DNA of 64,000 nt from positions 3,601,501 to 3,665,500 of the forward strand of contig NZ_CP053708.1 of assembly GCF_013201075.1 (NCBI RefSeq), written 5' to 3'. This DNA comes from Lichenicola cladoniae. Lineage in GTDB: Bacteria > Pseudomonadota > Alphaproteobacteria > Acetobacterales > Acetobacteraceae. A program made the position numbers and the translations under genes. The notes below the pieces were generated by a model. The model made no database searches. It saw only the letters and a list, made by a program, of their open reading frames with translations, and was not told the origin of the DNA. This document shows, in pieces, positions 16,248 to 28,608 of the stretch (position 1 is the stretch's first letter; every line of letters starts with the position of its first letter).

Positions 16248-17525
16248 TCAGGCCGGTGGACGCAGCAGGATCCGGTTGACCCGCGACAGGGCGCGATAGG
16301 TGTCCGCCCAGGCGACCTCGAACTTCGCCTGCGCGATGCCACGGTCGGCCAGCGCCGCGGCGATCGCGGCGATCGAGCGCTCGCCGTCCACCAGTCCGAG
16401 GATGGCTTTCGCCAGCGGCGGCAGCGGCACCGGCACCATGAGCCGCCCGAACGCCATCGGCAGGCTGCCGTCCGGGCCGATCTGGCGGATGATCTCGGCC
16501 GCCGGCATCTCGCGCACCACCGGCACCGCATCCGGCGCCATCGGATCGGGCGCCGCCGGGACCTCACCGCGCCGCACGGCATAGGCGACATGGGTATTCA
16601 TGTTGCCGGCGAGCGATTCCGCCAGCGACGCCCGTTCGATCGGCGACATCGAAGCCGTGCGGGCGCGCAGGCGAGGATCGGGCAGCAGCAGGTCGGGATC
16701 GTAGCGCGCCGGCTCCATCAGGCAGGCCGCCTCCAGCCCGGCCCGATCGAGCAGGCCCATGAAGCCGCGAACGTCGTAGGCCACGTCGCGCGGATTGAGC
16801 AGCAGGTCATACAGGCCCGCGTCGCCGCCCTCGAGATGATCGCCGAAGTTCATGTTGGCGCGCAGCCAGGCGGTCGCCGGCAGGTGCCGCATCACCCGCT
16901 TCGCGGTCTCGAGCCTGGTGTGCGGCGCCTCATCGATCGGTGCCAGCAGCGCCAGCGCGTCCTGCAGCATGTAAACGCCGGTCCGGCCATGCGGCGCATA
17001 CACCATCAGGCCGATGCCGCCGCCCGGGGCCAGCGAGCGCTCCAACCCGATCAGCGCACCGGCCGGGTCCGGCAGGTGATGCAGCACGCCGCAGCAATCG
17101 ATGTAGTCGAACTGCCCGAGGTCCGCCGCCGGCAGGTCGAGCAGCGACCGTCGCAGGAACGCGATATTGGTGAGCCCCCTGACCGTGGCCCGCTCGCGGG
17201 CGACGCCGAGCGCCCGCTCCGAACGGTCGATACAGGTGACGCGCCCGGGGCGCCCGGCCTGCTGCAGCTGGGCCGCGATCATGATGGCACCGTCACCGGT
17301 GCCGCAGCCGGCAACCAGTACGTCCAGCGGCCGGCTGGCCGGCCGGGCGGCGCCGAACACCCAGTGGTCGATCTCGCGCAGGTGGCTCGGGCTGCCGATG
17401 AACAGCCGCTTCGCCTCGTCGCGCGGGTCGCGCTCGGGATAGGGGTAGGCCTCGTACTGGGCGGCGAGGTTCAGATCCTCGCGGTCCCCGGTCGCCGATA
17501 CCGGGCCGGCCGGCGCCTCACGCAC
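16248..17525 (-). CDS. SAM methyltransferase with C-terminal PqqD-like domain
   Basis: 425 aa, GTG start. A conserved AAQYEAYPYPERDP opening is followed by motif I LDVLVAGCGTGDGAIMIA, IDRSERALGVARERA and YIDCCGVLHHLPDP. Residues ~340-425 form a second domain (LPPLAKAILGLVDGERSIAAIAAALADRGIA) whose LxxxDGxRSIxxIAxxL pattern resembles PqqD/RRE winged helices. The start overlaps the upstream OpuAC-like gene by 8 bases, implying translational coupling. Substrate unknown; the PqqD-like call is by pattern only. Confidence 0.8.
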   Translation of the reverse strand: MREAPAGPVSATGDREDLNLAAQYEAYPYPERDPRDEAKRLFIGSPSHLREIDHWVFGAARPASRPLDVLVAGCGTGDGAIMIAAQLQQAGRPGRVTCIDRSERALGVARERATVRGLTNIAFLRRSLLDLPAADLGQFDYIDCCGVLHHLPDPAGALIGLERSLAPGGGIGLMVYAPHGRTGVYMLQDALALLAPIDEAPHTRLETAKRVMRHLPATAWLRANMNFGDHLEGGDAGLYDLLLNPRDVAYDVRGFMGLLDRAGLEAACLMEPARYDPDLLLPDPRLRARTASMSPIERASLAESLAGNMNTHVAYAVRRGEVPAAPDPMAPDAVPVVREMPAAEIIRQIGPDGSLPMAFGRLMVPVPLPPLAKAILGLVDGERSIAAIAAALADRGIAQAKFEVAWADTYRALSRVNRILLRPPA

Positions 17526-18297
17526 GGGGGGTCAACCGTCCGCGCTGCCAGGCCTCCGCCGCCTCGTCCGCCGTCATGCCGTCGGTGCGCATGGCATATT
17601 CGAGCGCGCTGACCACCGGGTTGCCGAGGGTGAGTTCCCCCAATTCGTCCAGCAGATGCGGATCGAGCGAGGCGCGCAGCCCCGTCCGGAGCAGCAGCTT
17701 GGCCTCCTGCCGGGCCGGGAGCGCCGCCCTGGGGTCATCCAGCGGGCGCAGCCGGCCGCCATGCGCCAGTGCATGCGGTTGCCACAGCGGCAGCACCCTG
17801 GCGGCCGTCGCGTCGAGTGCCGTGGATGCATGGGCATAGGCCGCCTCGTCATCCAGCACATCGAGCCGGTAGCCGGCCTGCTCCAGGTCGTAGGCGGCCA
17901 GGACGCGGATGGCATACGTTTCGAGCCGGCGTGGCAGGACGATCGCGTGGTCGATCACCGAAGCGATATCCGGCTTCGACAGGTCGGCGATCGAGCGCAG
18001 GCCGGCGATGTCGAGCGACGCGGGCACCGCCCACAGCAGATAGGGCCGATAAAGGACGCTGCCGAGGATCTCCGCGGTCGCGGGATCGGCCAGCATCGGG
18101 TCGATGTCGGGGAGCCAGGCGGTCGCCAGCAGGTCGATGTTGCCATCGCGCAGGGAGCTGAACAGCGTATCGCGATCGCCGGCCACCATCTCGACCTCGA
18201 TGTCGTGCGCCTCGAGCACCCGCAGCACCGCAGCGGCAGCGGCCTCGTGCTGCCGGTTGTCGAGATGGCCCAAAGTCAGGCTGGAGATGAAGCTCAT
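17518..18297 (-). CDS. OpuAC-like (glycine-betaine-type) substrate-binding protein without signal peptide
   Basis: 259 aa from the ATG at 18297. The whole length fits the OpuAC binding fold: SSLTLGHLDNRQHEAAAAAVLRVLEA, ATAWLPDIDPML, YLLWAVP and RVLPLWQPHALAH, the segment that supplies cage aromatics in betaine/choline-binding proteins. No signal peptide or lipobox is present, and the open frame upstream is not hydrophobic either, so it should stay in the cytoplasm. No permease or ATPase gene is adjacent. It leads a methyltransferase operon, which suggests presenting or sensing a methylated amine. The role is inferred. Confidence 0.78.
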   Translation of the reverse strand: MSFISSLTLGHLDNRQHEAAAAAVLRVLEAHDIEVEMVAGDRDTLFSSLRDGNIDLLATAWLPDIDPMLADPATAEILGSVLYRPYLLWAVPASLDIAGLRSIADLSKPDIASVIDHAIVLPRRLETYAIRVLAAYDLEQAGYRLDVLDDEAAYAHASTALDATAARVLPLWQPHALAHGGRLRPLDDPRAALPARQEAKLLLRTGLRASLDPHLLDELGELTLGNPVVSALEYAMRTDGMTADEAAEAWQRGRLTPRA

Positions 18298-18727
18298 GGC
18301 GCGCAGTTCCTGAGGACGGCCAGCGGTTGCAGCAGGTGCGGGCCGGTTCTGCAAGTGCGGAGCCGGGCGGACGCCGCCGTGGACGCTGGCCCGATGGGGA
18401 TGCCTCGACTGGCGCCTGGTCGCGGATAGGCCAAGTCCGGTGTGGGGCCAAGGGATCGACCCAGGTGTCGTCGACCGTGTCATTCTCTCGACTAGTCGCG
18501 CGAAACGAGACGCAAGGAGTAATAATCGGCCTGAAATGCAACTGAAACGAATGACGAGAGCAATGTTGCAACAATATCGGTCTAATCAATAGACTTTAAT
18601 ACTGGAAGCTTTTAGATAATGCGTCTAAGCTTCCAATCGTTAACAGACTACAGGACTTCTGACAGTCGAGACGGATCAGTGATTCAGCATCGGCGGGCAT
18701 GACTGACCGGAGATTACAGCCATCAAC
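18298..18727. other. Intergenic region with divergent promoters, AT-rich
   Basis: 430 bases between the OpuAC-like gene (leftward) and the LOV gene (rightward). About 18480-18690 is much more AT-rich than its surroundings and probably carries both promoters. It contains the hairpin listed at 18604-18634. No convincing gene is seen. Confidence 0.6.
18604..18634. promoter_or_regulatory. Imperfect inverted repeat upstream of the LOV-KaiC-KaiB operon
   Basis: GGAAGCTTTTAGA and TCTAAGCTTCC pair across a 7-base loop, with a 2-base bulge in the left arm. It lies ~94 bases before the LOV-gene start in the AT-rich stretch. It could be an operator or a leader hairpin; nothing decides between these. 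Confidence 0.4.
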
Positions 18728-20947
18728 GTGCTCCACGGCCTGTTTCGAACGCGATCCTTCTTGCGCAGTTCGCCCTGGCTGGTTTCGACCTTATCGTTGC
18801 CAAGACGGAACACGGGCCAGGAGCCTGCCGATCCCGGCCTCGACGGCTATGCGGCGCTGGCCGCGACATCGCATGCCGTTATCGTCACCGATGCGACCCG
18901 GCCCGACGGGCCTATCGTATTCGCGAACGACGCCTTCAGGCTCCTGACTGGGTATTCGCAGGCTGAAATCCTCGGGCGCAACTGTCGGTTCCTGCAAGGC
19001 GTCGACACCGACCCGCTCGCGGTCGCCGAAATACGCCTGGCAGTTGCGTCGGGCCAGTCGCTGAACCGCAGGATATTGAACTACCACAAGGACGGCACGT
19101 CTTTCTGGAACGACCTCACGATCGACCCGATCCACGATGCGGCCGGGCAGGTAACGGGTTTCATCGGGCTGCAGATGAACTCGGATGCCATCCATCCGGC
19201 GGACGAGGCAAGGACGGTAGCGGAGTCCGAGCTCCGGGGCATCGCAAGCGACATACCGGGCTATATCTTCAGGCGCGTGATGCGAACGGATGCCACGATC
19301 GAGATGGTCTATTGCAGCCCGTCCCTGAGCAGGATGCTCGGGATCACGCAGGCGGACGCCACGAAATCCTTCTATGACTACGTCCATCCGGACGATCATG
19401 GCGCGCTGAACACGGCGATCCGCTCCTCGGCCGCCGACATGTCGGTTTTCCGGGAGGAGTTCAGGCTCGTTTCCAAGACCGGCACCGTACACTGGCTGCG
19501 CAGCGAGGCTCCGCCCCGACGGACGGACGATGGCGAGATCGTATGGGATGGTATCGCGATCGAGATCAGCGCAGAGAAACGCTGGAAAACCGAGATCGCG
19601 CAGCTGGCCCTGAGCGATCCGCTGACCGGTCTTCTCACGCGCGAAGCATGGTGGCAGGCCATGACCATGCGGATGAACACAGCAAGCGACGATGCGAACC
19701 GCTTCGCACTCTTCTACATCGATATCCAGGCGTTCCGCGATCTCAATGATACGCTCGGCCAGCGCCGGTGCGATGACATCCTGCGCGAGATTGCACAGAG
19801 GCTCGCGGCGCATGCGCTTTCAGGCGAAGGGATAGCGGGCCGGCTCGGCGGCGACGAGTTTGCAGTGCTTGTTCCGGTCTCCGCCCACGACGACGCCCTT
19901 CCCCTGCTCGCCGACGCGCTGATCGCCGCTCTTGCACTGCCGATGCAGATCGGCAAGCGTTCGCTGGCGATCAGGACCTGTATTGGCGCGACCCTCTACG
20001 AGAGCCGGAACAGTACGGGTGCGGCCGATAAGGACTTTGCGATCGAGTTGATGATCCAGGCGGAACTGGCACTCCGCTGGGCCAAGCAGCCGGGCTGCAG
20101 CGGCTATGTTCTCTATTCGCGGTCGCAGGATGATCGCTTCCATAATCAGGCCATTCTTGCCAGGTCGCTGGAGCGCGCCATCGATGACGACGAACTGGAA
20201 CTTCATTATCAGCCGGTCGTCGATCTCGCATCCGGCCGGATCGTGTCCGCCGAGGCGTTGGTTCGATGGAACCACCCGACGCTCGGACTGCAAAGACCCG
20301 ATCTCTTCGTTCCCATAGCCGAAAAATCCGGCCTGATCGTCCAGCTTGGCCGCTGGGTGCTCAACCAGGCAATGCGCCAGCGGACGGCGTGGCTGAATGC
20401 CGGTCTGATGCCACCGCCGATCGCAATCAATGTATCGGGGAATCAGTTGCTCGATACAGCCTTCGTCGAGTTCGCCAAGCAAGCGCTGGCTACCCAGAAC
20501 GCGGATGCGAGGGACTTCGAGATCGAGCTGACGGAAGGTCAGTTGATCGAGGCATCGCCGCAGATCATGAGTTCGCTGCACGCACTGCGGACCATGGGTT
20601 TCACCATCGCCATCGACGATTTCGGCAGTGGTCATGCAACGTTTCGTTATCTGCGCGACTTTCCGGTGGACAAGGTAAAGATCGACCAGATGTTCGTGCG
20701 CAAGCTCGTGGTCGGCTCGAGCGATGCGTTGATTATTCGCGCGATCATCTCGCTGGCCCGCGGCATGGAAATAGAGTTCGTCGCCGAAGGGATCGAGACC
20801 GAAATGCAGCGGGAGTTTCTGCAGCGCGAGGGATGCAGGATCGGCCAGGGCTACCTCTTCAGCGTGCCGCTGGTCGCCGAGGATTTTGCCTGGTTGCTGG
20901 CAAACGATTGTCGGCTGCCGCTGTCCGCACCCACCGAGGACTCCTGA
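18728..20947 (+). CDS. LOV-PAS-GGDEF-EAL blue-light-sensing cyclic-di-GMP protein
   Basis: 739 aa, GTG start with only a distant GGAG, so the exact start is uncertain. Residues ~40-150 are a LOV domain with the photoactive GRNCRFLQG motif (Cys86 would form the flavin adduct), NYHKDGTSFWND and FIGLQ, whose Gln149 relays the signal. A second PAS covers ~170-285. The GGDEF domain has intact GGDEF (374-378), but upstream motifs are altered (DIQAFRDLND, LGQRRCDD) and no RxxD inhibitory site is seen. The EAL domain looks complete (AEALVRW, INVSGNQL, ELTEG, DDFGSG, KVKID, AEGIET). It is probably a light-regulated phosphodiesterase. The kaiC start follows its stop by one base. Confidence 0.92.
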   Translation: MLHGLFRTRSFLRSSPWLVSTLSLPRRNTGQEPADPGLDGYAALAATSHAVIVTDATRPDGPIVFANDAFRLLTGYSQAEILGRNCRFLQGVDTDPLAVAEIRLAVASGQSLNRRILNYHKDGTSFWNDLTIDPIHDAAGQVTGFIGLQMNSDAIHPADEARTVAESELRGIASDIPGYIFRRVMRTDATIEMVYCSPSLSRMLGITQADATKSFYDYVHPDDHGALNTAIRSSAADMSVFREEFRLVSKTGTVHWLRSEAPPRRTDDGEIVWDGIAIEISAEKRWKTEIAQLALSDPLTGLLTREAWWQAMTMRMNTASDDANRFALFYIDIQAFRDLNDTLGQRRCDDILREIAQRLAAHALSGEGIAGRLGGDEFAVLVPVSAHDDALPLLADALIAALALPMQIGKRSLAIRTCIGATLYESRNSTGAADKDFAIELMIQAELALRWAKQPGCSGYVLYSRSQDDRFHNQAILARSLERAIDDDELELHYQPVVDLASGRIVSAEALVRWNHPTLGLQRPDLFVPIAEKSGLIVQLGRWVLNQAMRQRTAWLNAGLMPPPIAINVSGNQLLDTAFVEFAKQALATQNADARDFEIELTEGQLIEASPQIMSSLHALRTMGFTIAIDDFGSGHATFRYLRDFPVDKVKIDQMFVRKLVVGSSDALIIRAIISLARGMEIEFVAEGIETEMQREFLQREGCRIGQGYLFSVPLVAEDFAWLLANDCRLPLSAPTEDS

Positions 20948-20948
20948 C

Positions 20949-22778
20949 ATGGTCCGGGTATCGGGAACAGAAGATGGAGACAAGCCCGCAATGAATGCAA
21001 AGGAACCAGCTGCCAAGGCACCGAGCGTACCGCATGGCCGGACAATCGAGAAGGTCATCACCGGCATACCGGGATTCGACGAGATCAGCTTCGGTGGACT
21101 GCCGCGAGGTCGGCTGACGGCTGTCGTCGGTTCCCCCGGCGCGGGCAAGACGGTATTCGCGCTTCAGACCATTATCAATCGCCTGATTACGCTCGACGAG
21201 GCTTGCATCTTTGTCACGTTCGAGGAACCGCTGTCCCGGATCCGGAGCAACATCGCCTCCTTCGACTGGAAGGCCGACATTCTCGAAAACCCGATGTTCC
21301 GGTTTGTCGATGCACGGCTACCGGAACAAGCCGTGATGACCGGCGCGTTCGACATCGATGGCTTGCTTGCCGGACTGACCGCACTGGTCGAGGAGATCGG
21401 TGCACGCAACATCGTGTTCGACGGGATCGACATGTTGCTCAGCAGTCTTCAGGACGAACGGCTCGAGCGGCAGGAGTTGCTGCGCCTCGGTCATTGGATA
21501 AGCAATTCGGATATATCGGCTATCGTGACGGTCAAGACATTCGTAGCCGGAGACCGGGACCAGATCCGGGCCGATTTCCTCCTCTATATGACCGACTGCC
21601 TCATCGTCCTGACAGAAACCGTCACGGCGACCGGATCGTCACGGACCATCCGCATCGCCAAGTATCGAGGATCCGGATTTGCAGGCAACCCGGTGCCCGT
21701 CGTCATTGGATCATCCGGCATCGATGTTGTCGCTTTCAAGGGACAACGGGTTGATTATCCCACCTTCCTGGACCGGCTATCCTCGGGCGTGCCAAGGCTC
21801 GATGCGCTGCTCAATGGGGGGTATCTCCGCGGCAGCAGCACCTTGATCTCGGGTTCACCCGGTACATCCAAGACCAGCCTGGCCGTCAGTTTCATTGCCG
21901 CGGCCTGTGCTCGCGGTGATCGTGCTTTGCTGGTCAGCTTCGATGAGAGCGGCGCCCAGATCGTTGCGAACATGAGCTCGATCGGGATCGACCTTGCTCC
22001 TCATATCGAGAGCGGCCTGCTCTCCATCTGCTCGTTCCTCTCGGGAGGGCGAAGCCCGGAACAATTCTTTGTTGAAATCCGGAACCAGTTCGAGGCTGAC
22101 CGGACCGATTGCCTGGTCATCGACCCGATTTCCGCGTTGTTGAAAACGGATTATCCATTCTCGGCGATGATCTGCGAGAACCTCCTGGACATGGCGAAGT
22201 CGAGGGGAGCCACCGTGGTGTGCACCTCATTGCTGGACCAGGCGAGCCACAGCACCGAGTTGTCGGCAAGCCAGGTGTCAACGATCGCCGATACATGGCT
22301 GCATGTTTCGTATGTCGCTCGCGACGGAGAACGTAATCGCGCGCTGACCATCATCAAATCGAGGGGCACCGGACATTCGAACCAGGTGCGTCAGCTGGTG
22401 CTCGAGGCGTCCGGGATCGATCTCGTCGACGTCTATGTTGCCGAGGGTGAAGTACTGATGGGGAGTGGGCGGGCGCAGAAGGAAGCCGAGACCGAGCGGC
22501 TCCATGTCCTCGAGCAGATCGTCGCGGAACGACAACGCCTCAATCTTGACCGTCAACTGGCGGAAGCGCGTGCACAGGTCCAGGCGGCTGCACTGGAACT
22601 TGGATGGAAGCAGCGGGAGGCCGACCTGCTCACCCTGGCCGAAAAGAATCGTCAGGAAGTCTACCGCGAAGCCGCCATCGAGCGGCTGGGGCTGAGACGT
22701 GCTACCGACGATCTCCCTCCGGCAGAAATTTCGACAACCCAGGATATCCTACAGGATCAAAACAATGCATCCGGTTGA
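20949..22778 (+). CDS. kaiC: KaiC-family double-domain ATPase/autokinase
   Basis: 609 aa from the ATG at 20949; an ATG at 20991 is an alternative. Two RecA-like domains: CI with Walker A GSPGAGKT (61-68) and VTFEEP, CII with GSPGTSKT (302-309) and SFDESGAQ (Glu333 at the general-base position). The CII segment SASQVSTIAD aligns with the cyanobacterial KaiC phosphorylation loop, putting Ser444-Thr445 at the S431/T432 sites. Residues ~510-575 form a charged heptad-rich coiled-coil tail. It overlaps kaiB by 14 bases. No KaiA is seen nearby. Confidence 0.92.
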   Translation: MVRVSGTEDGDKPAMNAKEPAAKAPSVPHGRTIEKVITGIPGFDEISFGGLPRGRLTAVVGSPGAGKTVFALQTIINRLITLDEACIFVTFEEPLSRIRSNIASFDWKADILENPMFRFVDARLPEQAVMTGAFDIDGLLAGLTALVEEIGARNIVFDGIDMLLSSLQDERLERQELLRLGHWISNSDISAIVTVKTFVAGDRDQIRADFLLYMTDCLIVLTETVTATGSSRTIRIAKYRGSGFAGNPVPVVIGSSGIDVVAFKGQRVDYPTFLDRLSSGVPRLDALLNGGYLRGSSTLISGSPGTSKTSLAVSFIAAACARGDRALLVSFDESGAQIVANMSSIGIDLAPHIESGLLSICSFLSGGRSPEQFFVEIRNQFEADRTDCLVIDPISALLKTDYPFSAMICENLLDMAKSRGATVVCTSLLDQASHSTELSASQVSTIADTWLHVSYVARDGERNRALTIIKSRGTGHSNQVRQLVLEASGIDLVDVYVAEGEVLMGSGRAQKEAETERLHVLEQIVAERQRLNLDRQLAEARAQVQAAALELGWKQREADLLTLAEKNRQEVYREAAIERLGLRRATDDLPPAEISTTQDILQDQNNASG

Positions 22779-23109
22779 CCCGCCCCCGGACGGCATCGAC
22801 GCCTCCGGCGAGGGCGCCGGTGAAGAGCCGGCCGTCTACCTGCGACTTTATGTGGCCCGGTCCACGCCCAACTCGGTGCGCGCGGAACGCAATCTGACTA
22901 CCGTGCTCGCGTCCCTGAAGCACGAGCGCGTGCTCCGTTTCCTGGAAGTGATCGATGTGTTCCTGCAGCCCAGGCGCGCCGTTACCGAGGGTGTCATCGT
23001 CACTCCGACGCTCATCGGGCTTTGCGGCGACAAACGGATCGTGCTGATGGGAGATCTGGCCGACCGGAGCCAGCTGGAAGGCGTTCTCGCAGGACTGTCG
23101 AAGGACTGA
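22765..23109 (+). CDS. kaiB: KaiB-family protein
   Basis: 114 aa. After a ~23-residue Pro/Gly/acidic leader, it shows the KaiB pattern: LRLYVARSTPNSVRAERNL, LEVIDVFLQPRRA, VTPTLI (the cis-Pro strand) and RIVLMGDLADRSQLEGVL. In cyanobacteria KaiB switches fold to bind the KaiC CI ring. The start at 22765 lies inside the end of kaiC, so the two are translationally coupled. It ends 16 bases from the convergent mntH stop. Confidence 0.92.
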   Translation: MHPVDPPPDGIDASGEGAGEEPAVYLRLYVARSTPNSVRAERNLTTVLASLKHERVLRFLEVIDVFLQPRRAVTEGVIVTPTLIGLCGDKRIVLMGDLADRSQLEGVLAGLSKD

Positions 23110-23125
23110 CACACCGGCTGCGGGG

Positions 23126-24460
23126 TCACGCAGGCAGCAGTCCGGCAGTCTGAAGCAGAAGCGTCACGTTCAGGATCGACACGAAGGCCACCATGATCGA
23201 GGCCATGACCAGGGTCCGGCCGTTCATGCGGAACCGGCCCATCACCCGCCTGTCTCGGCTGATCATCAACAGGGTGATCATCGGCAGCGGCAGCACGAAG
23301 CTCAGCACCACCTGACTCCACAGCAAGGCGCTGGTCACGTTGGCGCCGAGCGCGATCACGATGAACGACGGCAGCATCGTCACCAGCCGGCGGATCCAGA
23401 TCGGGATTCGGAAGCCGACGAACCCCTGCATCACCACCTGACCGGCCATCGTGGCCACCAGCGAACTCGACAGGCCCGACGCCAAAAGCGAGATCAGGAA
23501 GATCAGCGCGGCCGCGCGGCCGAGCAACGGCGTCAGCGTGTGGTAAGCGCCTTCCAGGCTGTCGATCTCGGCGTGGTTGCCATGGAAGCAGGCGGCCATG
23601 ACCACCATTGCCATGTTCACCAGCCCGGCGATGGTCAGCGCGAACACCACCTCGCGGTTCGAGAACCGGACCATGCGGGCCCGCTCGGTGTCGTTGTGCA
23701 GGACGACCCGGTTCTGGGTCAGGCTCGAATGCAGGTAGATCGCGTGCGGCATGACCGTGGCGCCGACCAGGCCGATGCACAGGGTGATCGCGGCCGGATC
23801 GGGAATGCTCGGCACAACGCTGTGATACAGCACCGCTCCCCAGTCGGCCGGCGCGATCAGCAGCTCGCCGAGGTAGCTGATGCTGATCGCCGCGACCAGG
23901 CCGGCGATCACGATCTCCAGCGGTCGGAAGCCGCGCTTCTGCATGTTGAGCAGCAGCAGTGTCAGCACGCCCATGGTCGACATGCCGACCAGCAGGCCCA
24001 CATGCAGCAGCAGCGACAACCCGACCGCACCGCCGATGAATTCGGCGAGGTCGGTTGCCATCGCTGCCGCCTCGGTGAGCAGCCACATCGCCATCGTCAC
24101 CGGGGTCGAGAAGCGGTCGCGCGACAGTTCGGCCAGGTTGCGGCCGGTGACGATGCCGAGCCGGGCCGCCTGTGCCTGGAAGAACATCGCGATCAGGTTG
24201 GCCACCACCACGACCCAGAGCAGCGCGTAGCCGTAGCGGGCACCGGCCTGGATGTTGGCGACATAGTTGCCCGGATCGACATAGGCGACCGACGCCACGA
24301 CAGCCGGCCCCATCAGCGGCAGCAGGCTACGGATGCCATGGCGCCGACCGCTGAGGGTTTCGCCGAGGGCATGCTGGGTCCGGTCGGTCAGGGTCGGAGA
24401 GGTGGCGATGAGGAGAGACTTTCCGGAAAAGGGAACCAGCCGCGATGAGATCGTGTACAC
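23126..24460 (-). CDS. mntH: Manganese/divalent-cation NRAMP transporter MntH
   Basis: About 444 aa. Canonical NRAMP motifs: helix 1 YVDPGNYVANIQAG and helix 6 ATVMPHAIYLHSS, with eleven hydrophobic helices; proton-coupled Mn2+/Fe2+ uptake at the inner membrane. No ATG fits the N-terminus. GTG at 24460 or TTG at 24463 are the best starts, abutting the palindrome 24465-24480, so the message may be nearly leaderless. It diverges from mntR. Confidence 0.93.
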   Translation of the reverse strand: MYTISSRLVPFSGKSLLIATSPTLTDRTQHALGETLSGRRHGIRSLLPLMGPAVVASVAYVDPGNYVANIQAGARYGYALLWVVVVANLIAMFFQAQAARLGIVTGRNLAELSRDRFSTPVTMAMWLLTEAAAMATDLAEFIGGAVGLSLLLHVGLLVGMSTMGVLTLLLLNMQKRGFRPLEIVIAGLVAAISISYLGELLIAPADWGAVLYHSVVPSIPDPAAITLCIGLVGATVMPHAIYLHSSLTQNRVVLHNDTERARMVRFSNREVVFALTIAGLVNMAMVVMAACFHGNHAEIDSLEGAYHTLTPLLGRAAALIFLISLLASGLSSSLVATMAGQVVMQGFVGFRIPIWIRRLVTMLPSFIVIALGANVTSALLWSQVVLSFVLPLPMITLLMISRDRRVMGRFRMNGRTLVMASIMVAFVSILNVTLLLQTAGLLPA

Positions 24461-24464
24461 CAAG

Positions 24465-24480
24465 TGTAGCCTCGGCTACA
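24465..24480. promoter_or_regulatory. Palindrome between mntH and mntR (probable MntR box)
   Basis: TGTAGCC-TC-GGCTACA is a perfect 7-base inverted repeat. It resembles the E. coli MntR box core (ATAGC...GGCTAT). It sits 4 bases upstream of the mntH GTG and 41 bases before the mntR ATG. Mn-loaded MntR binding here would repress mntH and perhaps mntR. Inferred from position and resemblance. Confidence 0.75.
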
Positions 24481-24521
24481 ATTCGGTCAACCGCCCCGAA
24501 TGGCGTTATCGTGCCGCCGAC

Positions 24522-25007
24522 ATGACAAGCCCGCGACACCCGGCACTGCAGCACGACAAGGACGGCGAGCGGCCCGTGCTGGCGGAACATCATGACCGCG
24601 CGCGGACTGCACAGACGCGCGTGCTGCTGGAGGACTATGTCGAACTGATTTCCGATCTCGCCGGCGAAGGCCAGGCGGTCGGCCCCAGCTCGCTGGCGCG
24701 CCATCTCGGGGTCAGCCACGCCAGCGTCATCAAGAGCATCGGCCGGCTTGGACGCGAAGGGTTGGCAACTACCCTGCCCTATCGCGGCGTATCCCTCACC
24801 GAGACCGGCCAGGCCATGGCGGCCCGTGTCCGGCGTCGGCATCGGGTCGTCGTGGCGTTGCTGCGTGCGGTCGGGGTGCCGGAAGCCGAGGCAGAGGCCG
24901 ATGCCGAGGGGATCGAACACCATGTCTCGAACGCGACGCTCGAAGCGTTCGAACGCTTCCTGACGGCGTCGCAAAAGCCTTGCACACGCGCAATTGATCC
25001 CGATTGA
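24522..25007 (+). CDS. mntR: Manganese-dependent regulator MntR (DtxR family)
   Basis: 161 aa from the ATG at 24522. DYVELISDL, LARHLGVSHASVIKSIGRLGREGL (helix-turn-helix), LPYRGVSLTETG and DAEGIEHHVSNATLEAF follow E. coli MntR closely. All six ligands of the MntR metal pair can be placed: Asp38, Glu41, His107, Glu129, Glu132 and His133. There is no SH3-like extra domain, as in MntR rather than DtxR. Divergent from mntH. Confidence 0.93.
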   Translation: MTSPRHPALQHDKDGERPVLAEHHDRARTAQTRVLLEDYVELISDLAGEGQAVGPSSLARHLGVSHASVIKSIGRLGREGLATTLPYRGVSLTETGQAMAARVRRRHRVVVALLRAVGVPEAEAEADAEGIEHHVSNATLEAFERFLTASQKPCTRAIDPD

Positions 25008-25200: not shown

Positions 25201-25587
25201 TTGTTCCTGAACCGTGTGCTGATCGTCGAGGACGAGGCGATGATCTCGATGATGATCGAGGATTGCCTGGATCATCTCGGCTACGATGTCGTCGCGGTCG
25301 CATCGCATCTCGATGACGGGCTGGAAAAGGCACGCACGCTGGACATCGACGTCGCGGTGCTCGACGTGAATCTGCATGGAAAGCTCAGCTATCCGATCGC
25401 GGAGATGCTGGTGGACCGACATATCCCGTTCATCTTCGCCACCGGATACGGAAGGGCCGGGCTGCCGGAAAACCTTCGCAACGTGCTGGTCGTGACCAAG
25501 CCGTTCCGCGAGCAGCAACTGGCCGACGCGCTGCGGGCCGCGACCGCCGGGGCATCGACCAGCGGGATGGATCCGCTCGCCAGGTAG
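25201..25587 (+). CDS. Single-domain response regulator (CheY-like receiver)
   Basis: 128 aa with TTG start behind a GGGACAGG stretch; GTG at 25216 would begin at VLIVEDE. Receiver motifs: VLIVEDEAMIS (acidic pocket), phospho-acceptor Asp55 in VAVLDVNL, Thr81 in FIFATGYG and Lys100 in VTKPF. There is no output domain. Such stand-alone receivers often partner HWE/HisKA_2 kinases, and the bacteriophytochrome kinase gene ends 0.7 kb away on the other strand, so it is a candidate partner by proximity. Confidence 0.88.
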   Translation: MFLNRVLIVEDEAMISMMIEDCLDHLGYDVVAVASHLDDGLEKARTLDIDVAVLDVNLHGKLSYPIAEMLVDRHIPFIFATGYGRAGLPENLRNVLVVTKPFREQQLADALRAATAGASTSGMDPLAR

Positions 25588-26303: not shown

Positions 26304-28463
26304 TCACATCGGGATCGCCGCCACCGGCTGGATCGGGATGCTGATCTCGACCCGCAGACCCGGCTGGTTGTCGGTTTCGGTCAACGTTCCGCCAAGCTGC
26401 TTGACCAGCCCATCCATGATCCGGGAGCCGAAACCCATCTGGTGCGAGCTTCGGCCGATGCCCCGGTCCGCTACGACCATGCTGACATGCGTCGGCGTCC
26501 GATCCAGCCCGACCCGGATCGGGCCCGACGCACCCGCATAGGCATATTTGTTGGCGTTGATCAGCAACTCGGTGAGGACCAGTCCGAGCGTGACCGCCCA
26601 GTCGGCGGGGATCATGACCGCATCGACGTCCAGGGTGAAGTGTCCCATCCAGTCCTGGCCCATGAACGCGAAGGTGTCCGCGCAGAGCTCCCGGACATAA
26701 TGGCCGGCATCGATCCGGTCGATCGTGTCGCCGCGATACAGGCGCCGATGTACCAGTGCCACCGCGGTCAAGCGCCGCCGCGCCTCTTCCAGCGCGGCGT
26801 GCAGGCCGGGATCGGTCGATGCGCGCGACTGCATGGCAAGAAAACTCGAGACCAGGCCGAGGCTGTTCTGGACGCGATGATTCACCTCGCCGATCGCCAG
26901 CTCCTTCTGCAGCAGCAGCAGGTCCTTTTCCAGCAGGATTCGGGTCAGCCGCTGGTTGAGCTCCCGGGTCCGGCGGTTGTGCTGCACCTCCAGCAGCACC
27001 GCCCGCAGCCTGGTGGCGGCCTCGACCTCCGCGACCGACCAGGGCCGTGCACGGCCGCTGACGGTTTCCGACCAGTCGGCGAACGACGCCCGGGGCGTCA
27101 ACGGCGCGGCATGATCGGTTTCGGCTGGCTTGTGTGGATTGCCGGCCCAGTTGACCGTTTCTAGCCGCTCGGCCCTGAACCAGCACAGCAGCCAGGGCTC
27201 GTCGGCGGACAAGGTGATCGCCAGCAGGCCACTGCCGAATTTCTGGAACCGTTCCGCCTCAGGATAGGTTTTTGCAAGACTGGCACTGGCGAAAACTGGC
27301 ACCAGGCTGCGCGCGATCAGCCAGACCGCCAGCTCGCGCAGCTCGTGCTCGGCGGGGCAATGGCCGGTGCTGACCAGCTCGTGCCCGCGCAGCACGGCGA
27401 CGCCATCGCCGTTCATCATGCGGCCGACCTCGTCGAGATGGCTCGAGAGCACGGTCTCGAGCGGGCCCTCCTCGGACAGCACCGCGACGATCTCGTCCTC
27501 GCAGGCGCGCAGCCGGATCCGCTGGAGATAGCCTTCCGCCTCCTCCTTCGCCTTGATCTGCAGGGCGAGATTGCCGACCAGCGCCCGGCAGGTGATGCGG
27601 ACATCGTGCGGGATCCTGCGCGGGATCATGTTGTGACACGCGACCAGTCCCCACAGAATGCCGCCGATCACGATCGAGAACGATGCGGACGCCCGCACCC
27701 CCATGTTCTGCAGGTAGCGCACATGGATCAGCGAGACGCTGCGCAGGCTGGCATCGCTCATGTCGAGCGGCTGCGGATCGGTCCAGGCCGGTCTCAGCTC
27801 GGCCGGCTGGTAGAACGAGTCCGGGATCACCCGGAACAGGTTGCGCACATAGAGCTCGCGCGCCTGTTGCGGAATGTCCGAACCCGGGAAATGATGGTTG
27901 AGAAACCCGTGCACGTCGTCATGCCGGTCCTCGGCCAGCACGGTTCCGGCGCCATCGTCGAGAAACTGGTAAACCATTACGCGGTCGAAACCGGTAAGGA
28001 TGCGGACCTCCGCCGCCGCCCGCCTGCAAACATCGATCGGCGACGCCGACTGCTCAAACCCCGCCGCGATGATCGCCACCCGCTCCATCGCCTGCCCGGC
28101 CCGCACGCCGACGTCGTTGGCCGGCTCCAGCTCGATGATGAGGTGCGGGACGCTGCGATGGACATTCACATCCAGCAGGGCGCCGGCGGTCGTCCGGAGC
28201 TGGCCCATGAAACCATCCACGGCATCCGGACCGCGGAGGGACGCGATGTTCGCCGCGAGCGTCTCGCCCAGCATGATGTCAAGACCCTGGCCGTGCCAGT
28301 CCTCGATGCCGAGCACGCGCTCGACGTCGCCCGCGACATGCGTGACGAGCAGGCTGTCGATCGACGCCACCAGCATGATGCCGTGCGGCTGGATCGACCC
28401 CGGCGTACGAATGGGCTCCCGGTCGCAGGAGGAGCCTTCGGTCGGTGTGAACAGGATCTCCAT
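26304..28463 (-). CDS. Bacteriophytochrome sensor histidine kinase (PAS-GAF-PHY-HisKA_2)
   Basis: 719 aa from the ATG at 28463, preceded by GAGGAG. Cys13 (SSCDREPIRTPGSIQPHG) is the biliverdin-linking position. The GAF domain has GSDIPQQAR (Asp196) and IHVRYLQNMGVRAS (His247). The PHY tongue shows WFRAE, VNWAGNP and PRASFADW. The transmitter has a HisKA_2 H-box (EVNHRVQNSLGLVSSF, His529) and an ATPase domain with LTELLINANKYAY and GFGSRI. It senses red/far-red light. No heme oxygenase gene for biliverdin is seen in the window. A response regulator lies 0.7 kb away. Confidence 0.94.
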   Translation of the reverse strand: MEILFTPTEGSSCDREPIRTPGSIQPHGIMLVASIDSLLVTHVAGDVERVLGIEDWHGQGLDIMLGETLAANIASLRGPDAVDGFMGQLRTTAGALLDVNVHRSVPHLIIELEPANDVGVRAGQAMERVAIIAAGFEQSASPIDVCRRAAAEVRILTGFDRVMVYQFLDDGAGTVLAEDRHDDVHGFLNHHFPGSDIPQQARELYVRNLFRVIPDSFYQPAELRPAWTDPQPLDMSDASLRSVSLIHVRYLQNMGVRASASFSIVIGGILWGLVACHNMIPRRIPHDVRITCRALVGNLALQIKAKEEAEGYLQRIRLRACEDEIVAVLSEEGPLETVLSSHLDEVGRMMNGDGVAVLRGHELVSTGHCPAEHELRELAVWLIARSLVPVFASASLAKTYPEAERFQKFGSGLLAITLSADEPWLLCWFRAERLETVNWAGNPHKPAETDHAAPLTPRASFADWSETVSGRARPWSVAEVEAATRLRAVLLEVQHNRRTRELNQRLTRILLEKDLLLLQKELAIGEVNHRVQNSLGLVSSFLAMQSRASTDPGLHAALEEARRRLTAVALVHRRLYRGDTIDRIDAGHYVRELCADTFAFMGQDWMGHFTLDVDAVMIPADWAVTLGLVLTELLINANKYAYAGASGPIRVGLDRTPTHVSMVVADRGIGRSSHQMGFGSRIMDGLVKQLGGTLTETDNQPGLRVEISIPIQPVAAIPM

Positions 28464-28608
28464 CGACAGTGCTCCTCGCGCCAAGGCGGGAGCACTGCAC
28501 GGCTCTCAGCCGCCTGCGCCCGGGATCTCAGGCAGGCGATGACCGATCATACGCGATGGCCGCGATAGTTAGACAGCCTTGAATAAGGCCGTCCTCACGC
28601 GAGCCGGC

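Follow-up and report, generated by a model that had tools for sequence, protein, structure and literature searches.

To our knowledge, the outputs of KaiBC systems and the light inputs that reach them are poorly understood outside cyanobacteria. The input factors known from cyanobacteria were described as missing elsewhere (available text of PMC5520375). The closest described relative of the locus analysed here is the KaiBC pair of Rhodobacter sphaeroides, an hourglass reset by ATP/ADP, for which a photosynthetic ATP/ADP cue was also described (available sections of PMC10076222). The locus is a three-gene unit in a 64,000-nucleotide stretch of Lichenicola cladoniae DNA (the window), in which the gene for a LOV-PAS-GGDEF-EAL protein, a predicted blue-light sensor acting on cyclic di-GMP (c-di-GMP), is followed directly by kaiC and kaiB. 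As in R. sphaeroides, a two-domain KaiC with a coiled-coil extension and two adjacent phospho-acceptor positions is adjoined by kaiB, and no kaiA lies beside kaiC. The comparison with KaiBC timers lacking KaiA, which was drawn in the initial annotation, was well founded, and R. sphaeroides KaiC was the best solved relative, its coiled coil included. The partner gene differs. The R. sphaeroides region, used as a yardstick, holds kaiC, kaiB and an HWE histidine kinase, whereas the window has the LOV-PAS-GGDEF-EAL enzyme. Moreover, the window genome gave no reaction-centre match, its KaiC was 33% identical to that of R. sphaeroides, and the CII site read FDE instead of FEE.

Clusters of kaiC and kaiB followed by a GGDEF/EAL protein were reported for non-cyanobacteria in the Ramlibacter tataouinensis genome paper of 2011 (PMC3164672). 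The architectures there include PAS_2PAC_GGDEF_EAL, and the word LOV is absent from the available text of that paper. These clusters resemble the window in having a GGDEF/EAL protein directly beside kaiC-kaiB; however, their gene lies downstream, whereas that of the window precedes kaiC and encodes an intact blue-light LOV domain. No description of a LOV-GGDEF-EAL/kaiC/kaiB operon was found in open-licence papers, a scope that does not prove absence. The initial claim that no such gene set had been described was therefore too broad for the general pairing of GGDEF/EAL proteins with kaiBC, which was already known, and held for the blue-light version, which appears to be new.

Two LOV-GGDEF-EAL proteins are also informative. 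SL2 of Synechococcus elongatus is a blue-light phosphodiesterase with this architecture (PMC8846402, PMC13001216) and, like the window protein, has the photoactive Cys; no kai linkage is stated in the available passages of these two papers, and the window protein differs by an additional PAS domain. The Mesorhizobium loti protein lacks the active-site Gln (PMC9098866, available part, where no kai link is stated). Its LOV domain has Met at this position, as do four of the six Belnapia-type kai-linked LOV domains described below (the other two have Thr), whereas the window LOV domain keeps the Gln.

The LOV enzyme, KaiC and KaiB of the window

The initial annotation had placed the LOV enzyme, kaiC and kaiB at 18728-23109 with a one-base gap and a 14-base overlap, and the open reading frames and Pfam matches agreed with this. 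The features are as follows.

18728..20947, plus strand: LOV-PAS-GGDEF-EAL gene, 739 residues, GTG start (open reading frame list and Pfam)
18848..19201, plus strand: LOV domain, about residues 41-158 (PAS_9 match, structure matches and motifs)
18983-18985, plus strand: codon of the photoactive LOV Cys86, in GRNCRFLQG
19172-19174, plus strand: codon of LOV Gln149, in FIGLQ
19307..19552, plus strand: second PAS domain (PAS_3), residues 194-275 (Pfam)
19610..20089, plus strand: GGDEF domain, residues 295-454, GGDEF motif intact (Pfam and motif table)
20162..20869, plus strand: EAL domain, residues 479-714, catalytic motifs intact (Pfam, structure matches and motif table)
20949..22778, plus strand: kaiC, 609 residues, ATG start, two ATPase domains (open reading frame list and Pfam)
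21129..21152, plus strand: CI Walker A, GSPGAGKT (sequence and alignment)
21852..21875, plus strand: CII Walker A, GSPGTSKT (sequence and alignment)
22278..22283, plus strand: Ser444-Thr445, at the positions of R. sphaeroides KaiC Ser413-Ser414 in the alignment
22464..22706, plus strand: long helix near the C-terminus, residues 506-586, corresponding to the coiled coil of R. sphaeroides KaiC
22765..23109, plus strand: kaiB, 114 residues, ATG start (open reading frame list and Pfam)
18484..18727, no strand: upstream intergenic region, 45.5% GC

The first protein matched PAS_9 (the Pfam family that holds LOV), PAS_3, GGDEF and EAL. Its LOV domain matched phototropin LOV structures with an E-value of 6e-31; models of the YtvA family and of LOV histidine kinases also matched, with scores under their cut-offs. 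The initial reading of a photoactive-type LOV domain (GRNCRFLQG, FIGLQ) was borne out by the presence of Cys86 and Gln149. The signature was complete in what we take to be its defining elements, namely the Cys in GxNCRFLQ, the conserved Asn residues and the Gln. The EAL domain had all the motifs presumed to be catalytic (EAL, NVS, ExTE, DDFG, KID, AEGxE and QG). No RxxD inhibitory site was seen by eye in the GGDEF domain. The second PAS domain was missing from the five aligned Belnapia-group counterparts.

KaiC contained two KaiC ATPase stretches by Pfam. Its nearest relative in the PDB was R. sphaeroides KaiC, with residues 33-575 aligned to 5-545 and the alignment running through the coiled-coil tail. 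The phosphorylation sites of the latter are Ser413-Ser414 as named in PMC10076222 (available sections). The structural model of KaiC was of moderate quality (mean predicted local distance difference test score, pLDDT, 69; predicted template modelling score, pTM, 0.51; seven sequences), and only local helix and domain calls were used. In these, the helix at residues 506-586 had block pLDDT values of 82-86 over residues 521-570 and lower values toward both ends. Foldseek placed R. sphaeroides KaiC chains at ranks 1-7, with poor global superposition (low TM-scores and large root-mean-square deviations). The NCBIfam scores were 431.6 bits for PRK09302 (cut-off 408) and 222.8 for circ_KaiC (cut-off 546.25). 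The CI Glu-Glu pair was intact, and the FDE in CII was also present in all six Belnapia-type KaiC copies. Because the CII Glu-Glu pair is replaced by FDE, a likeness to the R. sphaeroides hourglass type is proposed and membership of that exact type is not claimed; kinase activity of the window KaiC is presumed. Further KaiC-like proteins are encoded elsewhere in the genome. A GGDEF protein lies about 0.7 kb upstream of one of them (L072, G000:C4:158450-159814), on the same strand.

KaiB was divergent in sequence. It exceeded the Pfam cut-off (37.6 bits against 27) and fell under those of NCBIfam (circ_KaiB, 46.1 against 145.3; PRK09301, 44.1 against 110). It was the sole KaiB match in a genome-wide search. 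The KaiB model was nearest to the fold-switched KaiB structure 5jyt, and Legionella KaiB and the SasA N-terminal domain were included in the top ten rows; KaiB was thus modelled in the KaiC-binding fold.

The stop codon of the first gene and the ATG of kaiC were separated by one base (position 20948). The ends of kaiC and kaiB shared 14 bases (22765-22778), so that the kaiB ATG lay inside the kaiC end. An alternative in-frame kaiC ATG at 20991, also behind GGAG by eye, would widen the gap to 43 bases. The upstream neighbour, a substrate-binding protein by Pfam (17518-18483), and the downstream neighbour, mntH (23126-24463), are both on the other strand; therefore, the unit consists of three genes, and we infer that they are co-transcribed. 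The intergenic region 18484..18727 likely holds the promoter of the unit. No match to a sigma-70-type promoter was found in it, and the scans for promoters and terminators returned a single promoter-like site, on the minus strand, and a single terminator-like one, within the first gene, no more than in shuffled sequences. No kaiA was present within the three-gene operon; a genome-wide search for kaiA was not made. An assembly artefact was considered unlikely, as the unit is located within a contig of 4.8 Mb. Chance adjacency was also a poor explanation, because the 6.06 Mb genome contains 21 matches to the enzyme at E<=1e-40 (itself included) and one KaiB match, and the order recurs in six other genomes.

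Partners of kaiC and kaiB in other genomes

A Cys-bearing LOV-GGDEF-EAL gene was found directly before kaiC-kaiB in six genomes besides the window: Belnapia rosea, B. arida, B. moabensis, Belnapia sp. F-4-1, a Belnapia metagenome-assembled genome (MAG) and an uncultured Craurococcus MAG. A single-genome oddity was thus ruled out, as was the concern in the initial annotation that the adjacency might be confined to one genome. The five carriers other than the Belnapia MAG are the g37 genomes (G172, G274, G121, G297 and G213). The LOV Gln was replaced in all six copies, by Met in four and Thr in two; in each the GGDEF motif was lost and the EAL domain was intact. Both gene junctions were 4-base ATGA overlaps in five of the six.

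A count of conserved neighbours across Acetobacteraceae, which had been proposed in the initial annotation, was made in a wider sample. At a KaiC cut-off of E<=1e-70, KaiC was found in 29 of 299 family, 11 of 398 phylum and 9 of 385 class genomes, the window genome being counted each time. Loci were fetched with their flanks for all 34 in the family (window aside), 10 in the phylum and 8 in the class, some of them clipped at contig ends. A scan of named genomes with KaiC alone gave nothing; with alignment A1 it gave 28 loci, which hold only KaiCs with one of two short motifs and are not a random sample, and of which five repeat g37 loci and two repeat others. An EAL-domain gene occupied the adjoining slot in 5/34 family, 2/10 phylum, 0/8 class and 13/28 named-genome loci. 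L101, in which KaiC is split, was added to this tally by hand, and L054, in which a short EAL fragment adjoins a histidine kinase, was left out. Among the 74 distinct loci, including the window, the neighbour was an EAL enzyme in 16, an EAL fragment with a kinase in one, a histidine kinase in 44 and another or unclear gene in 13. Domains were called by single-sequence matches and the kinases were not all checked with Pfam, so weak cases may be missed and the kinase count is at least 44. A signalling enzyme of one kind or the other stood in the adjoining slot in at least 60 of the 74, and the two kinds alternated; the EAL enzyme probably stands, as a rule, in place of the histidine kinase. The EAL gene lay upstream of kaiC-kaiB in some loci and downstream in others.

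The catalytic motifs were kept in 15/15 full-length linked EAL domains, and the GGDEF motif was lost in 10 of the 14 kai-linked enzymes with that domain. On these counts, the common output of the EAL-linked loci is probably c-di-GMP hydrolysis, and GGDEF activity looks dispensable. The linked enzymes had in common an intact EAL domain and, where the gene was whole, a sensory N-terminus. A LOV-like domain was present in eight, with the photoactive Cys in seven (absent in L121). EAL partners without a photoactive LOV domain were found in Pseudoxanthomonas gei, a Sulfuritalea MAG, Aromatoleum diolicum, two Wenzhouxiangella, Haliea, Rhodovibrio sodomensis (a fragment at a contig end) and two other genomes. 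The Aromatoleum protein (L083) combined kinase, receiver and EAL domains, and L087, counted as EAL, was a fragment at a contig end. Within the 13 other or unclear loci, Pfam identified a kinase in L075 and, in the betaproteobacterial L079, L085 and L097, a Crp-like DNA-binding protein after kaiC-kaiB instead of a kinase or EAL enzyme, which is a third kind of partner. PAS proteins in which Pfam found no output domain occurred in L058, L122 (clipped at a contig end) and L125; no KaiB was within reach of kaiC in L067 and L136. A plasmid search returned 14 records with kaiC, all below 60% identity (Cereibacter, Rhizobium, Sinorhizobium, Pararhizobium and Falsirhodobacter).

Some variants were also observed among the kinase-type loci. 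Two KaiB open reading frames occurred in 16/34 family loci, and a tandem kaiB pair followed kaiC in many kinase-type loci of this set (L043-L070), although some pairs may be overlapping frame calls. In the Falsiroseomonas loci L037/L077 and L096, kaiC-kaiB was followed by a kinase with a Cys-less LOV-like domain (GRSPRLLQG); L037 also had a Cys-less LOV-like GGDEF protein upstream.

The KaiC tree comprised 71 loci and two outgroup rows, with L070, L100 and L101 dropped for their short KaiC. The EAL label required four changes, at least three of them forced by starred branches, compared with 13.9 in shuffles. One origin of all EAL-linked kaiBC loci was rejected for KaiC, with an approximately unbiased (AU) p value of 7.9e-74 for the 15 KaiCs as one clade; therefore, the pairing was gained or lost repeatedly. 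A clade of the window and Belnapia-type KaiCs was compatible with the data (AU p 0.255), whereas in the unconstrained tree the window KaiC was placed apart from them, on a long branch; the similarity of the enzymes lent little support to a common origin of the window and Belnapia LOV operons. In the tree of EAL domains (15 linked and 21 unlinked), the linked domains clustered (two changes vs 11.8 in shuffles); its branches were weak and its unlinked set was biased, with 20 domains from the genus of the window, its own genome included, and one from another genus of the family.

Proposed coupling of light and timing, and the competing explanations

The reading preferred here, tentatively and at a little under an even chance, is that a KaiBC timer module of the hourglass type is joined to a blue-light-gated c-di-GMP phosphodiesterase that replaces the usual histidine kinase. 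Blue light would form a flavin-Cys adduct in the LOV domain and change the activity of the EAL domain, most likely towards more c-di-GMP hydrolysis, following the example of SL2; both this direction and net hydrolysis by the window protein are presumed. KaiC would autophosphorylate independently of KaiA, like its R. sphaeroides counterpart, whose extended C-terminal tail holds the A loop in an exposed state; KaiB would bind in its thioredoxin-like form. The KaiC/KaiB state would then act, through a putative physical or regulatory coupling, on the LOV enzyme, which stands where sister operons have a histidine kinase. Light and metabolic time would both converge on the c-di-GMP level, and the enzyme would add a direct light route to an ATP/ADP-reset hourglass. 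On the most economical view, KaiBC acts together with a partner enzyme, which here would control c-di-GMP and sense blue light. A more specific form, which we regard as rather improbable, is that the enzyme is an equivalent of SasA that docks onto KaiC or KaiB, with hydrolysis gated by both blue light and KaiC phosphorylation. Such a timer would be light-entrained without photosynthesis and would write the time of day into a second messenger, not a phosphorelay.

Several observations weigh against the hourglass-phosphodiesterase coupling. Most kaiBC loci adjoin a kinase and not an EAL enzyme. The FDE in CII, against FEE in R. sphaeroides KaiC, might alter the kinase chemistry, and the intact GGDEF motif means that the window enzyme could make c-di-GMP. 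According to the available text of PMC13001216, c-di-GMP did not clearly affect the Kai proteins of cyanobacteria in vitro, which speaks against its acting directly on Kai proteins. In the g37 genomes, the kai-linked gene was the best match to the window enzyme in only one of five; its rank among the matches at E<=1e-60 was 1/3 in G172, 2/4 in G274, 4/5 in G121, 9/11 in G297 and 2/3 in G213, and these matches covered about residues 281-734. Because the linked gene was rarely the best match, the window and Belnapia-type enzymes may not be orthologous. The LOV operon was not found in the four other genomes of the genus that were searched; two had another kaiC type with a histidine kinase, and two had no KaiC at E<=1e-70. 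This absence, together with the lower GC content of kaiC (59.2%) and the LOV gene (61.7%) than of the window (65.3%), hints at horizontal acquisition.

Shared transcription may suffice to explain the operon, if the enzyme and KaiBC are made together for day/night or stress conditions and, without touching each other, have different targets. Close spacing of the genes would suffice for co-expression, adjacency by itself says nothing about binding, and the EAL gene may lie upstream or downstream. However, the alternation of kinase and EAL enzyme in at least 60 of 74 slots is more in keeping with a functional partner than with a passenger, and this explanation is considered possible but doubtful. 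The window enzyme could also be mainly a light-controlled diguanylate cyclase, or bifunctional, with light changing c-di-GMP synthesis. Its GGDEF domain keeps the motif and the IDIQAF...ND region, and a LOV-GGDEF-EAL protein truncated to LOV-GGDEF behaved as a blue-light-repressed cyclase (PMC9098866, available part). Ten of the 14 kai-linked counterparts with the domain have lost the GGDEF motif and kept EAL, which points to hydrolysis as the output under selection; a cyclase or bifunctional role is considered unlikely.

The enzyme may instead be an input, in which light alters c-di-GMP or local GTP, sets KaiC phosphorylation and entrains the timer without photosynthesis. The reaction-centre family PF00124 had no match in the window genome, whereas S. 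elongatus, among 14 controls, did match; the photosynthetic ATP/ADP cue is thus probably absent, and a light signal acting directly would be of use. Changed c-di-GMP also shifted period and phase in S. elongatus, yet no consistent direct effect on Kai proteins was reported (both PMC13001216, available text). Furthermore, all five g37 genomes have reaction-centre genes (as does the Falsiroseomonas genome G195) and nevertheless the same gene order; an input role thus appears distinctly improbable. Two genomes with other EAL-type partners, G435 and G365, had no reaction-centre match. As for the LOV flavin itself, flavin-type PAS domains can sense redox or oxygen. RmcA is discussed in PMC8846402 (available sections), and the Belnapia-type copies have Met or Thr in place of the Gln. 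In the window protein, both the Cys and the Gln are present, and LOV proteins without the Gln still respond to blue light or signal (PMC9098866, available part). Redox or oxygen sensing in place of blue light is accordingly given very little weight.

The comparison suggests, as a possible general rule, that either a histidine kinase or a phosphodiesterase fills the place next to kaiBC, so that the outputs of the timer module may be exchangeable. The pairing could let light and elapsed time act on one signal molecule. The compact, conserved operon offers a three-protein system for reconstitution, in which one could examine whether c-di-GMP can serve as the readout of a KaiBC timer and by what route light reaches such a timer without photosynthesis.

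Other light sensors and neighbouring genes

The window genome encodes one other Cys-bearing LOV domain, on another contig, and a LOV-like-GGDEF-EAL protein without the photoactive Cys. An unlinked protein of the latter kind, also without the Cys, was found in G132, of the same genus. A red-light sensor lies near the blue-light operon: a bacteriophytochrome (PAS_2-GAF-PHY) with an HWE/HisKA_2 kinase is encoded at 26304-28484 on the minus strand, 3.2 kb from kaiB, and a single-domain response regulator (25201-25587) lies between the two. In another genome of the family, a phytochrome-like histidine kinase (L048, 11202-13544) is located a few kb from a kaiC-kaiB-kaiB-kinase cluster. Directly beside the window operon, an mntH-type Nramp transporter and an MntR-type regulator occupy 23126-25007 on opposite strands.

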